Source: a bacterium
GTDB taxonomy: Bacteria > Electryoneota > JAOADG01
Length of the DNA stretch: 64,000 bases
Direction: 5' to 3'
NCBI GenBank assembly: GCA_026417415.1
Contig: JAOADG010000037.1
Span: 1 to 64,000 of the forward strand
The notes beneath the pieces are model-generated. The model ran no database searches. It had not been told where the DNA came from and worked only from the letters and a program-made list of their open reading frames with translations. A program made the position numbers and the translations under genes. This document shows, piece after piece, positions 2,635 to 57,866 of this stretch. Numbering within the stretch: position 1 is the stretch's first letter; each line of letters begins with the position of its first letter.

Positions 2635-4142
2635 TACTTTTTAACCCACCAATGATGAATACTGGAATGAATCACTTGCTCTTTTTCTATTCGTTGAATG
2701 AAAACATCTTTCGTTGGAATACCGATATCCACGATTTGCTTTGCATCCAAAGGATAACCAAAATACTTTTTCCATTGTGCTGCTACGTATTGGTTTGTTG
2801 CAATGGTATAAATCTGCTTATCATTGCACTCTTTATCGTTTACCTTCAAAGAAAGAATCTTATTGCCTTCACTTTGTATTTGTATTCCAGAACATTGGAT
2901 GAAATCCTGAGATACTTGCAATCGGTATTCAAACATTTTTTTCAATTCAGAACCAGAAACAGAGATGCGTACTACACTATTTCCAAACGGTTCTAATTGC
3001 CAAACATCAATTTTTCTTATCGGTCCACGTAACCAATCCACACGAATTCCACCCGAGTTGTAAAGTCCAATATCTGTTCCCAAATAATTTTGTAAACTTT
3101 CACAAACCCAATTTCCTACATTTGATTCACCGTCAAACTTTCTAATAAAATCTGTTTTCAGTTCACCTATCACTTTTCCCAATTCATCTTGAACAATTTT
3201 TTCATGTTGAATTAAAATCTTGTACAGATTCGAATCCACTGGAAGTCCCCGATTAGGTCCTATTTCCACAAGTGTAGTCATTGATTGAATCACTTCATTT
3301 TTCACTGTATCCACCTTCAAATCCACACGTCCCAGATACCTTCCATATTGACCTGCTTGAACAATTCGGGTTCCATTCACCAAATAATCTTTGGTCGTTA
3401 TAGAATGGCTGTGACCACCTACGATTAGATCAAATCCTGGTACATTTAGCGCTAATTGAATATCTTGTTCTAAACCTTGATGAGTTACAGCGATTAAGAC
3501 ATCTGCATGTGATTCCATTCGTTGAACGAAGTTACGTGCAATAGGAATGATCGCGCGAATCTCAACTTGGTCCAAATGTTTTGGATGGACCACAGAAGCC
3601 AAATCTTCAAGAGTAAAAGCAATAATAGCAAACACTACACCATTTCTAACGAATGTTTTCTCTTGGATAAAAATTGGTTGTTGTGAATCTTTGTAAACAA
3701 GGTTTGCACTTACCAAAGAAATACTGCTATCTAAAGCACTTTGAAAATCTTTTAAGGCATCCATACCATAATCAAATTCATGATTTCCAACAGCAATCAC
3801 ATCTGGTTTTAAAAGATTAAGCACATCGGCTTGTTTTTTCCCTTTTGATAGGGCGGAAATAGGACCACCTGTAAATTCGTCACCTGCATCAAATGTAAGG
3901 GAAGTTGGAACCGAATTTCTCCATTCATGTAACAATCCACTTAAATAATGTACACCACCTACAGAATCAGGGACAGTATTTTCAAATTTTCTAACCAATT
4001 GTGGCATATTCATTGAGTGCAGATCATTCCAATGAAAAATAGATGCGGACACAAGTTCTGTTGCATGAATAGTTCCATATCCAACGAAAACAAACAAAAA
4101 AAGAATGATGGATAAATTTAACTTTTCAAATCGCAGTGACAT
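2634..4142 (-). CDS. secreted 5'-nucleotidase / 2',3'-cyclic phosphodiesterase (UshA family)
   Basis: A 502-residue two-domain enzyme. The N-terminal metallophosphoesterase half has HWNDLHS (usually HTNDxHG), DAGDEFTGG, AVGNHEFDYG, AVTHQGLEQD and GGHSHS as metal ligands. The C-terminal 5_nucleotid_C half has YNSGGIR. I chose the ATG at 4142, not an upstream in-frame codon, because AGGA precedes it and a signal peptide (about residues 1-27) begins there. The longer form would overlap the EIIA-like gene by 92 nt. It likely hydrolyses nucleotides in the periplasm for nucleoside or phosphate scavenging. Confidence 0.82.
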   Translation of the reverse strand: MSLRFEKLNLSIILFLFVFVGYGTIHATELVSASIFHWNDLHSMNMPQLVRKFENTVPDSVGGVHYLSGLLHEWRNSVPTSLTFDAGDEFTGGPISALSKGKKQADVLNLLKPDVIAVGNHEFDYGMDALKDFQSALDSSISLVSANLVYKDSQQPIFIQEKTFVRNGVVFAIIAFTLEDLASVVHPKHLDQVEIRAIIPIARNFVQRMESHADVLIAVTHQGLEQDIQLALNVPGFDLIVGGHSHSITTKDYLVNGTRIVQAGQYGRYLGRVDLKVDTVKNEVIQSMTTLVEIGPNRGLPVDSNLYKILIQHEKIVQDELGKVIGELKTDFIRKFDGESNVGNWVCESLQNYLGTDIGLYNSGGIRVDWLRGPIRKIDVWQLEPFGNSVVRISVSGSELKKMFEYRLQVSQDFIQCSGIQIQSEGNKILSLKVNDKECNDKQIYTIATNQYVAAQWKKYFGYPLDAKQIVDIGIPTKDVFIQRIEKEQVIHSSIHHWWVKK

Positions 4143-4488
4143 GACATCCTCGCTGAAACGCTTGCTGACAGCTTTCAAGCAAATCCGGCAAAGGCAAAAG
4201 GGTTCGTTTAGTCGCAAAACTTAATAACATCGGAAGAGAAAAACCACACACAAGGTAGTCACCTTTCTGGGCTATGGTGCGAATGATCCGCTCAGCAGTG
4301 GTACCGGGAGCATCTGCAAACCAAACGATCACGGTATCCATTTGTGGTCGTTCTAATTGATGAAATTCTGGTTCAAAGGAGATAGCGATTAATCCTGTCT
4401 CTATTTTTAAGATTGCTTGGATTTCTTCAATTAAAGCAATCCCCCAATTGCCGCGTGTGACAATTATTCCAATGGGAGATTTATTCAA
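4126..4488 (-). CDS. PTS EIIA (mannose family)-like protein lacking the phosphorylatable His
   Basis: A 120-residue protein with the EIIA-Man fold pattern: an N-terminal beta strand IGIIV, a loop, then an amphipathic helix, and a later GFSLPMLLSF resembling the GxNLPML segment of the family. In classical EIIA-Man the first loop is T-H-G with the phospho-accepting His. Here it is T-R-G (about residues 11-13), so phosphotransfer looks impossible at that site. The TTG start has GAGG upstream and overlaps the hprK stop by 8 nt. The position right after hprK suggests a regulatory role. Confidence 0.65.
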   Translation of the reverse strand: MNKSPIGIIVTRGNWGIALIEEIQAILKIETGLIAISFEPEFHQLERPQMDTVIVWFADAPGTTAERIIRTIAQKGDYLVCGFSLPMLLSFATKRTLLPLPDLLESCQQAFQRGCHVTAI

Positions 4489-5461
4489 AATCGCCCTCGA
4501 TATGTTTACGAATTTGACGTTTGCGTTCTATTTCACGTTGAAGATTTTCAGTAAATTCTTTGGCACTGTTAATGCCTAACAATCTCAACAAATAATTTAG
4601 TGCAACGATTTCAGCCAACACCGCAAGATATTTACCCGGCACAACAGGTAGTTGAATATAAGGAAGCTTAACACCAAGCAATTCTATTTCTTTTGTTTCT
4701 AAACCTATACGTTCTATATCCTCTTCGCTAGCATCAGTAATCAACTCAAGTACGACTTCCACTCGTTTTTGCAAACGAACTGCTCGTACTCCAAACAAAT
4801 GTTCAACATTTAAGATACCTAATCCTCTCACTTCAATTACGTGACGAAGCAATTCAGGTGCTCTACCCATTAAAATGCCTGTCATCCGTTTAGAAAGATC
4901 AACCACATCATCTGCGACTAACCGATGGCCTCGTTCAATTAAATCCAAAGCTAATTCGGATTTTCCTGAACGAGCTTTACCATAAATCAAAATGCCTACT
5001 CCATATACATCCACCAAAACGCCATGAACTTGTATTTTAGGAGCAAAGCGTTCATCTAAAGAGGTCCCTAACTGACTAATCAATTCAGTAGTAGACAGAG
5101 GAGTGGTTACCAAGGGGACGTGATACCGATTGGAAAGTTCAATCATTTCAGGTGACGGGACATTCTTGTCAGTAAGAATGATCAAGGGAATTGGATAACG
5201 AAATACCTCTTCAATACTATGGTATCGCGCTTCTGATGTTAAATTCCGTAAGTAACCATTTTCAGTATTACCTAAAATTTGTATACGATCGAATCGGAAA
5301 TTTCCAAAATAGCCAGTAATTGCTAAAGCGGGACGATTTAAATCCTTTTCATAAATTAGACGATCAAGACCACTTTGACCGCTGACCAATTCAAACTGAA
5401 AACGTTCACCTAAATCATCAATAATTTCTTTTACAGGAATGGGTTCTGCTTTAATCTCCAT
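4481..5461 (-). CDS. hprK: HPr kinase/phosphorylase
   Basis: A 326-residue, full-length bifunctional HprK, which phosphorylates and dephosphorylates a Ser of HPr in response to energy state. The N-terminal domain spans roughly residues 1-130. The P-loop GKARSGKSELA follows VDVYGVGILIYG, then the VADD metal-binding motif, and the HprK signature IEVRGLGILNVEHLFG. The P-loop shows ARSGKS where SGIGKS is usual. No HPr or EI gene is in the window. It sits 9 nt after hpf, a common gene order in Gram-negative bacteria with a regulatory PTS. Confidence 0.92.
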   Translation of the reverse strand: MEIKAEPIPVKEIIDDLGERFQFELVSGQSGLDRLIYEKDLNRPALAITGYFGNFRFDRIQILGNTENGYLRNLTSEARYHSIEEVFRYPIPLIILTDKNVPSPEMIELSNRYHVPLVTTPLSTTELISQLGTSLDERFAPKIQVHGVLVDVYGVGILIYGKARSGKSELALDLIERGHRLVADDVVDLSKRMTGILMGRAPELLRHVIEVRGLGILNVEHLFGVRAVRLQKRVEVVLELITDASEEDIERIGLETKEIELLGVKLPYIQLPVVPGKYLAVLAEIVALNYLLRLLGINSAKEFTENLQREIERKRQIRKHIEGDFE

Positions 5462-55652: not shown

Positions 55653-55820
55653 ACTTCTCTCAGAAGGTAATTCGAATAAAAATTGAATAAAAAAAGAAAA
55701 CAAAATGTAAAACACTAAAAAGTGAAACCAAAACCTTGCAGATGCGTAGCTTTTCAAAAAAGTTTTGCATTCTGATAATTCTCACCCTATCTTTGCGTTG
55801 CTATTCAAATCGATCATTTT

Positions 55821-55895
55821 GCTGGGGTAGCTCAGTTGGTTAAGAGCGCTAGACTGTGGATCTAGAGGTCGCGGGTTCAACTCCCGCCCCCAGTA
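55821..55895 (+). tRNA. tRNA-His(GTG) with atypical acceptor end
   Basis: 75 nt. The D stem is GCTC/GAGC and the T arm GCGGG/CCCGC with TTCAACT. The anticodon stem CTAGA/TCTAG closes CTGTGGA, anticodon GTG. The acceptor stem is GCTGGGG/CCCCAGT, so the first pair is G1-U72 and the discriminator is A73. Position -1 is T, not the G-1 found in almost all tRNA-His. CCA is not encoded. It is followed by the structured rpsA leader. Confidence 0.9.
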
Positions 55896-55923
55896 CAAAA
55901 TCGCTGAGAATAGCATCTCAATC

Positions 55924-55979
55924 GTTGTACATCTTAGATAAGGGTCACTAAGTATGTACAACAGAGTTTTGTTGACCCT
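55924..55979 (+). ncRNA. candidate H-type pseudoknot in the rpsA leader
   Basis: A 14-bp stem (55924-55937 with 55948-55962, one bulged T at 55953) encloses a 10-nt loop. Seven loop bases, AGGGTCA (55941-55947), pair with TGACCCT at 55973-55979. No nucleotide separates loop pairing and stem, so both helices could stack coaxially as in classical H-type pseudoknots. It lies 85 nt before the rpsA ATG. A 15-codon ORF (55954-56001) starts inside the stem. Pairing is seen; function is inferred. It matches no family I can name. Confidence 0.5.
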
Positions 55980-56063
55980 AATTGCCACTCGCTTGAAGTA
56001 GTTTTGTAAATAATTGAAACTAACCCAATGAAACGCGGGAGGTACAAAAAGGAATAATTGAGA

Positions 56064-57866
56064 ATGACAGAAAACGTTCCAGAAAATCCATCAGTTCAAC
56101 CAACAAATATAGATTCCATCTCTATTCTCAAAAAGAAAAAAAGCAAAACCATTTTAGCCCCTGAAATTGAAGAACATACTCCCCAAGAAGTGGAGTACTA
56201 TTCCCAACTAATCGATCGAACAGCGACTGAGATGAAAGTCGGTTCAATCGTCAAGGTGCTTGTTTCAGGAAAGTCTGAAAAAGAAATCACAGTGTCAACC
56301 AATTTCAAATCGGACGTAAGCATTCCCATTGAAGAATTTGACAATATTTCGGAACTGAAAATTGGCGACGAAATTGAAGTTCTGTTTGATTACATTGATG
56401 AAGAAACCAGTCAACCAGTACTTTCTAAACGAAAAGCAATTAAATTGCGCGCATGGGAAAATTTACGTTCAAAATATGAACAAGGGGAAATTGTAAAAGG
56501 AAAAGTGATTAAACGTATCAAAGGTGGTTTGATCGTTGATATAGAAGGTGTTGAAGCATTTTTACCGGGTTCACAAATTGATGTACATCCAGTTCGTGAT
56601 TTTGATATGTATTTAGGAAAAACCATGGATTTCCGAATTATCAAAATCAATGAACAAAGACAAAATGCAGTGGTTTCTAGAAAAGTATTGGTCGAAGAAA
56701 ATCTCTCAGAGCGGCGAACTGAAATTTTAGATACGTTACACAAACTTATCCACGAAGAAGGAAGACAAGACGTCGTCTTAGAAGGTACGGTGAAAAATAT
56801 TACTGACTTTGGTGTATTTGTGGATTTAGGTGGAGTAGATGGGTTATTGCACATCACTGATTTATCCTGGGGACGTGTTGATCACCCAAGTCAAGTTGTG
56901 TCAATGGATCAAAAAATCAAAGTTAAAGTACTCAGTTACGATCCTGAAAAGAGACGAATCTCACTTGGTCTAAAACAATTACAAGAAAATTATTGGGAAT
57001 CAATTGAATCTAAGTACCCAGTGGGTAGTAAAGTCAAAGGCAAAGTGTCTCTCATTAAAAGTTATGGTGCTTTCGTAGAATTAGAACCCGGTGTTGAAGG
57101 ATTGGTGCATGTGAGTGAAATGAGTTGGACCCAACACATTAAACACCCTTCTCAAATGGTACAACCCGGTGATGAAGTAGAAGTAGTGGTGTTGAAAGTG
57201 GATACTGTGAATCGAAAAATTTCTCTTGGGATGAAACAAGTGAATCCTGACCCTTGGCAGAATATTGAAGAGAAATATCCTATCAACAGTAAACAAACTG
57301 GTGTAGTCCGTGATATCATGCCCTATGGTGCTTTTGTGGAGTTAGAGCCCGAAATTGATGGTCTTGTCCATATAAGCGATTTATCATGGACCAAGAAAGT
57401 TAAGCATCCAAGTGATATTCTAAAGAAGGGCGATAAAATAGAAGTGATGATTGTCTCTATTGATAAAGCAGAAAGAAGAATTGGCTTATCGTTGAAACGC
57501 TTGGAATCGAATCCCTGGGATATTTTTGCAGATCGATTCCCAATCAAATCGCGAACAGTAGCGCAGGTACAACGACTCAATGAGAAGGGAGTAGTGGTCA
57601 CGTTACCCTATGGTATTGAAGGATTCATCCCAAACAGTTTACTCTCAAGAACAGCAGATGGTCCAAAACGAAAAAACTTGAAACCTGATGATTTGGTAAT
57701 TGTTGAAGTAACCGAGTTTGAAAGAGAAAATCGCAAGGTCATTCTTACTGCAATAGATTTTGCAAAGGATATGACTATGCCTTCCGATGATGATTTTCCT
57801 ATGCCATTGCCAACTGGTGCTACGATTGCAGATATCTTAGAAGAAAATAAAAAAGAAAATCATTAA
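56064..57866 (+). CDS. rpsA: 30S ribosomal protein S1
   Basis: A 600-residue S1 with six S1/OB-fold RNA-binding repeats between about residues 50 and 580. The best-preserved ones show VKNITDFGVFVDLGGVDGLLHI-type cores, here recognisable as TDFGVFVDLG, KSYGAFVELEPG and MPYGAFVELEPE. It binds mRNA to the 30S subunit. I chose the ATG at 56064; a TTG two codons upstream shares the AAGGA. The long leader could allow autogenous control, as known for S1 in E. coli. A terminator follows. Confidence 0.95.
   Translation: MTENVPENPSVQPTNIDSISILKKKKSKTILAPEIEEHTPQEVEYYSQLIDRTATEMKVGSIVKVLVSGKSEKEITVSTNFKSDVSIPIEEFDNISELKIGDEIEVLFDYIDEETSQPVLSKRKAIKLRAWENLRSKYEQGEIVKGKVIKRIKGGLIVDIEGVEAFLPGSQIDVHPVRDFDMYLGKTMDFRIIKINEQRQNAVVSRKVLVEENLSERRTEILDTLHKLIHEEGRQDVVLEGTVKNITDFGVFVDLGGVDGLLHITDLSWGRVDHPSQVVSMDQKIKVKVLSYDPEKRRISLGLKQLQENYWESIESKYPVGSKVKGKVSLIKSYGAFVELEPGVEGLVHVSEMSWTQHIKHPSQMVQPGDEVEVVVLKVDTVNRKISLGMKQVNPDPWQNIEEKYPINSKQTGVVRDIMPYGAFVELEPEIDGLVHISDLSWTKKVKHPSDILKKGDKIEVMIVSIDKAERRIGLSLKRLESNPWDIFADRFPIKSRTVAQVQRLNEKGVVVTLPYGIEGFIPNSLLSRTADGPKRKNLKPDDLVIVEVTEFERENRKVILTAIDFAKDMTMPSDDDFPMPLPTGATIADILEENKKENH

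Follow-up and report, generated by a model that had tools for sequence, protein, structure and literature searches.

The gene for ribosomal protein bS1, rpsA, occupies positions 56064–57866 on the plus strand of the window, the 64,000-nucleotide (nt) stretch of DNA analysed here, and its product, counted from the ATG at 56064, comprises 600 residues with five S1 repeats recognized by the Pfam S1 model. A gene for tRNA-His (GTG; 55821–55895, plus strand) lies upstream, separated from rpsA by a 168-nt leader, and the gene order near rpsA reads PFK–GAPDH–ComM–tRNA-His. The order around rpsA differs in G001, the sole other member of the window's family (f1) in our sample of 39 genomes of the phylum. 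There, the gene upstream of rpsA (locus L009, minus strand, approximately 3610–4722) has the look of a subtilisin-type protease whose C-terminus carries a sorting-like domain; this name, like those in the gene order of the window, was assigned by sequence reading alone. Neither tRNA-His nor a tRNA of any other kind was found in the 4.7-kb locus around G001 rpsA, and tRNA-His therefore stands outside the conserved unit.

The leader can form an H-type pseudoknot at 55924–55979 (plus strand), which begins after a gap of 28 nt from the end of tRNA-His and ends 84 nt before rpsA, so that it spans approximately 85–140 nt upstream of the start codon. Stem 1 joins the 5′ arm GTTGTACATCTTAG (55924–55937) to the 3′ arm CTAAG-T-ATGTACAAC (55948–55962), with a single bulged T at 55953. 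Between these arms lie loop 1, ATA (55938–55940), and the 5′ arm of stem 2, AGGGTCA (55941–55947), which pairs with the 3′ arm TGACCCT (55973–55979); loop 3, AGAGTTTTGT (RNA AGAGUUUUGU; 55963–55972), is A/U-rich. The earlier note had proposed precisely this geometry, a 14-bp stem with one bulge and a 7-bp pairing, connected by loops of 3 and 10 nt and a junction of 0 nt, and every part was recovered letter for letter at the coordinates it gave. By sequence and energy the element thus has a loop that pairs with a downstream strand, stackable stems and short loops, as expected of an H-type pseudoknot. At idealized A-form distances, a loop of 10 nt can bridge 14 bp in a straight line, the lower bound being approximately 5–7 nt; this estimate uses general helix constants and had two groove columns swapped, with the same lower bound either way.

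When one bulge was allowed, the best H-type pseudoknot of the 168-nt leader was exactly the 55924–55979 structure, with a stacking energy of −34.6 kcal/mol. Dinucleotide shuffles of the leader averaged −15.6 kcal/mol and gave −23.8 kcal/mol at best, and 0 of 300 reached the value of the window; the pseudoknot fold is far above chance. The energy of stem 1 was equalled by none of 5,000 shuffled flanks with the loop held fixed, stem 1 is present in both the minimum free energy (MFE) and the centroid structure of a 205-nt fold, and the fold of the entire leader is moderately more stable than those of its shuffles (z = −2.15; 5/200). Because a stricter, bulge-free scan did not single out the window pseudoknot (108/200 shuffles), the outcome hinges on permitting the one-base bulge. 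A DNA search of the window's own genome returned, besides the element itself, only chance-length matches of at most 20 bases, and a repeated element was rejected. Rfam release 15 likewise yielded only the tRNA at or above gathering score in the window, leaving the pseudoknot unmatched, and matched no family in 20 related loci; the earlier note had named no family of this shape.

Comparison with G001 showed the predicted pseudoknot kept at rpsA in this sole available relative, with stem 1 rebuilt. The S1 protein of G001 is 71% identical to that of the window over the matched part, and the two leaders can be aligned over most of their length by local alignment, which we used because MAFFT alignments placed the two pseudoknots out of register. 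In the aligned stem 2, GGATCA/TGATCC in G001 stands against GGGTCA/TGACCC in the window, so that six pairs are kept, one of them by a double change that amounts to a single compensatory replacement of G-C by A-U (n = 2 sequences). A descriptor of stem 2 (a 6-nt arm with at most one mismatch to that of the window and its exact complement 15–40 nt on) was matched in 28 of 5,000 shuffles of the G001 leader. The score of the local alignment over the pseudoknot part was reached in 21 of 2,000 shuffles; given the two arm changes, a permutation retained pairing by chance in approximately 15% of cases, which makes it a weak test. Stem 1 of G001 is built from unrelated letters (GCU.UUCC..UCG / CGA..GGAA.AGU) and has an energy of −10.2 kcal/mol when the stem-2 loop is constrained to stay unpaired, a value reached by 24 of 5,000 shuffles; the MFE structure of the segment is a shorter form of the same stem. 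The 3-nt loop 1 and the 0-nt junction are common to both genomes, and loop 3 of G001 is AUAAUUUGU, 13 nt long when the outer pairs are omitted. Because stem 1 of G001 has internal loops, a blind search for the best pseudoknot chose a different structure there, one equalled by 204 of 300 shuffles.

The signature AAGGRTCA-N12..40-TTGTTGAYCC, drawn from the alignment, occurs in 2 of the 39 phylum genomes, once in each and both times at rpsA, and its reversed control in none; given its origin, it shows specificity and is not an independent discovery. In viral contigs the signature was found at at least 120 loci, and an rpsA protein search of 120 of them matched none. A wider contig search for family members returned a single locus, with a match to just a portion of the query. 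A conserved structure before a ribosomal-protein gene, as in an r-leader, was thus present in 2/2 genomes of the family, that is, in two sequences, and for these two the predicted structure is well supported. The check that the earlier note had proposed, an alignment of rpsA upstream regions from related genomes, yielded one compensatory pair in stem 2 and a rebuilt stem 1, at n = 2.

Downstream of the pseudoknot, the leader holds several further elements, all on the plus strand. CUCGC (55988–55992; CUCGU in G001) is a weak candidate for pairing with GCGGG at 56035–56039, and this CUCGY/GCGGG pairing was all that RNAalifold retained when the downstream domain was aligned by hand. Positions 55999–56022 can form a hairpin with an AU loop, UAGUUUU-GUAAAUAAUU-GAAACUA, whose G001 counterpart is CC(U)AGUG-UUAAUAAUU-CACUGG; both genomes keep the loop, and their stems differ in letters yet pair in each. 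The sequence ACGCGGGAGG is also common to both leaders. GGGAGG (56037–56042), a complement of the anti-Shine–Dalgarno (anti-SD) sequence, is predicted to be mostly paired in both genomes (mean probability of being unpaired, 0.17 in the window and 0.18 in G001), and AAGGA (56049–56053), the likely working SD, lies 10 nt ahead of the ATG in each genome and is predicted to be open (0.99 and 0.82, respectively). The anti-SD CCTCC was found in the window genome and in G001, and with AAGGA in both leaders we did not find an initiation region of the E. coli rpsA type, which has no canonical SD. Because its stability is unremarkable against shuffles (z = −1.6 in the window and 0.1 in G001), the downstream domain makes a weaker case than the pseudoknot.

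Transcription of this leader probably starts upstream of tRNA-His, where a promoter-like TTG-N20-TATCTTTG at 55765–55795 (plus strand) predicts a start near 55801; from such a start, a single transcript would cover both tRNA-His and the complete rpsA leader. This best promoter match lies upstream of the tRNA and not downstream of 55979, where a start would, according to the earlier note, have spoken against the element. The pattern TTG-N19..21-TAnnTTTG, a promoter type like that of Bacteroidota, occurs in the window at four noncoding and two coding sites, although coding sequence makes up 90% of the window by a crude gene call; the noncoding sites, in which the pattern is thus enriched, are 55765–55795 on the plus strand and 33706, 33744 and 47142 on the minus strand. 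A weaker −7-like sequence, TAGTTTTG at 55999, has no −33 element at a suitable distance and is not shared by G001; the conserved TTG stands 24 nt upstream of it, outside the usual spacing.

Other rpsA leaders of the phylum are predicted to form different structures. In family f3 the leader was readable in 10 of 11 genomes (L017, L019, L020, L022, L024, L026, L029, L030, L049 and L050), the eleventh genome, G038, being 56% complete, and all ten can form another H-type pseudoknot, approximately AACCCCG-N0..7-YYCCGG-N0..2-CGGGCAUAAAA-CCGGAR; the final strand of this pseudoknot corresponds to the purine-rich SD region, 5–9 nt before the ATG. In a hand alignment made to fit the structure, 101 of 102 pair cells were canonical, a figure equalled by 0 of 2,000 re-deals of the partner arms; the row of L024 is two letters short in loop 1 and so not verbatim in the locus, its stem letters being right. 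A covariance-model alignment of the f3 leaders was dropped, as stem 2 was out of register; the coordinates used there for L024 missed the pseudoknot. The bulge-free scan, which used an incorrect start (GTC) for L026 and hence a wrong distance to its ATG, found the f3 pseudoknot as the best pseudoknot in 10/10 leaders, nine of them at no more than 10 of 200 shuffles and the tenth, L022, at 17/200. A strict form of the pattern occurs in 8 of the 11 f3 genomes, once in each and always at rpsA, and Rfam had no match in the eight f3 rpsA loci scanned. The f3 pseudoknot seems to constitute a new r-leader by itself.

Among the 21 leaders outside f3, only L013 and L028 came out at no more than 10/200 in the bulge-free scan, and no common pseudoknot emerged from the set, which includes the window and G001, whose pseudoknots need bulges; the f1 form is therefore lineage-restricted. 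The predicted f3 pseudoknot is unrelated to that of f1, though both stand at rpsA. Three of the f2 leaders read, L012, L014 and L018, carry instead of the f3 structure a CYC/GRG-based hairpin directly before the SD, with arms such as CUCAC..GUGAG and CCUCGCUC..GAGCGAG, and L018 could form a pseudoknot too (16/200 shuffles). Together, the f2 and f3 leaders suggest a putative phylum-wide leader of the form AACCYCR...YGRGCAUAA.

We propose that the f1 element acts in cis as a ribosomal leader for the bS1 gene and would serve feedback by bS1, a reading to which we give about an even chance. Pseudoknots are described as high-affinity targets of bS1, and in gamma-proteobacteria bS1 represses its own mRNA by competing at a leader whose SD is weak (PMC10931766). 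The tisB mRNA needs a 5′ pseudoknot for binding of S1 and the 30S subunit, and selection experiments (SELEX) yielded an H-type pseudoknot as an S1 ligand (PMC7708055). It is because of this published work on S1–pseudoknot binding and rpsA repression that we read the pseudoknot as an S1 site and the leader as a feedback element; an S1-responsive leader is plausible on these grounds (PMC10931766, PMC7708055), and from the same analogy we infer S1 as the ligand and repression as the outcome. A transcript begun upstream of tRNA-His would carry the pseudoknot with its A/U-rich loop 3, followed by the AU-loop hairpin and then by the pairing that would hide the strong GGGAGG, with the weaker AAGGA acting as the ribosome-binding site. 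Excess free bS1 would bind the A/U-rich loop of the pseudoknot and the loop of the AU hairpin, would compete with the 30S subunit or trap it at the weak AAGGA, and would thereby lower its own synthesis. The putative contact with loop 3 is modelled on rpsO, for which S1 is proposed to act on an A/U-rich connecting loop (PMC3858243).

The main rival to feedback is that the pseudoknot enhances translation or acts as a standby site; it would recruit the 30S subunit through its S1, a role also proposed for the tisB pseudoknot, and raise rpsA translation without feedback. The anatomy resembles that of tisB, with a pseudoknot well upstream of the start, A/U-rich stretches downstream of the pseudoknot and an SD region that is hidden in part, and the requirement of the tisB pseudoknot for S1 and 30S binding (PMC7708055) would fit such a role; AAGGA, however, is predicted to be open in both genomes, which leaves no obvious need for a standby site, and rpsA feedback is the pattern known from gamma-proteobacteria (PMC10931766), so we regard pure enhancement as unlikely. 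Somewhat more improbable is a part in protecting or processing the transcript, whereby the structure would separate tRNA-His from rpsA, set the trimming of the tRNA 3′ end or block exonucleases at the 5′ end of the processed rpsA mRNA. The short distance from tRNA-His to the pseudoknot and the predicted promoter common to both would suit such a part, but G001 has its pseudoknot before rpsA in a 4.7-kb locus devoid of tRNA, and on this ground the narrower idea of a tRNA-His processing element was rejected.

Readings that dispense with the RNA fold or give it another task fare worse. Dimeric repressors bind long inverted repeats, so the long repeat here could equally suit such a protein, and the conserved TTTGTTGA could be a −33 element; the repeats might then act as DNA, as an operator, part of a promoter or a terminator, with the RNA pseudoknot unused. 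Yet G001 keeps the pairing of stem 1 and not its sequence, no −7 element follows the conserved TTG at normal spacing in either genome, and no terminator-like site was found in 55700–56100, which disposes of the terminator; we consider a DNA element very unlikely. The earlier note had also suggested that folding could mask AAGGG (55940–55944) as the SD of a 15-codon open reading frame (ORF) at 55954–56001, nine nt downstream; with stem 2 as the mask, this would be a scheme of attenuation or upstream-ORF control. Both the ORF and its SD spacing are present in the window, but G001 has no ATG between the arms of stem 2, and its sole start-like codon, at the 3′ arm of stem 2, is a TTG that opens four codons. 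With no counterpart in G001, the masking role was dropped as barely credible, and what the one available relative supports of that account is the geometry of the pseudoknot and its link to rpsA.

The proposed leader of the bS1 gene shares features with several known systems. Like the rpsA leader of E. coli and other gamma-proteobacteria, it lies in the leader of the same gene, has AU-rich unpaired segments accessible to S1 and is proposed to act in feedback; the E. coli leader, by contrast, is without a canonical SD and is not described as a pseudoknot in the excerpted text of PMC10931766, whereas that of the window combines an H-type pseudoknot with a GGGAGG that is predicted to be hidden and an AAGGA predicted to be open. 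With rpsO (uS15) it has in common a pseudoknot in the leader of a ribosomal-protein mRNA, and the rpsO pseudoknot is unfolded by S1 (PMC3858243); the gene and repressor are different, and the E. coli rpsO pseudoknot embraces the SD and start codon, unlike the one at rpsA, which ends well upstream. The tisB and SELEX pseudoknots are likewise H-type and are bound by S1 (PMC7708055), while for that of the window S1 binding is putative; stem 1 of tisB has 9 nt and stem 2 has 5 nt, with loops of 0, 2 and 3 nt (PMC7708055), against 14 bp, 7 bp and loops of 3, 0 and 10 nt here. The leaders of Eckert and Weinberg are also conserved structures before ribosomal-protein genes, but 0 of the 20 in Table 1 have an S1 ligand or the rpsA gene (PMC7247131). 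Among the matches listed in our literature search on rpsA and ribosomal leaders, covariation, autogenous control and pseudoknots, no title describes an rpsA pseudoknot, and we consider the rpsA pseudoknot leaders new as a variant, on the basis of two f1 and ten f3 sequences.

In several families of gamma-proteobacteria bS1 is known to regulate itself, an effect attributed to unpaired AU-rich stretches of the leader. We tentatively suggest that bS1 may also control its own gene through natural pseudoknots, and that, at rpsA, two or more unrelated ones may have arisen in this phylum, that of f1 placed upstream with an A/U-rich loop and that of f3 compact and lying over the SD. If pseudoknots are the S1 handle in another phylum, the pseudoknot selected as an S1 ligand gains a natural counterpart, and two unrelated pseudoknots at rpsA would be a good test of convergent evolution among ribosomal-protein leaders.
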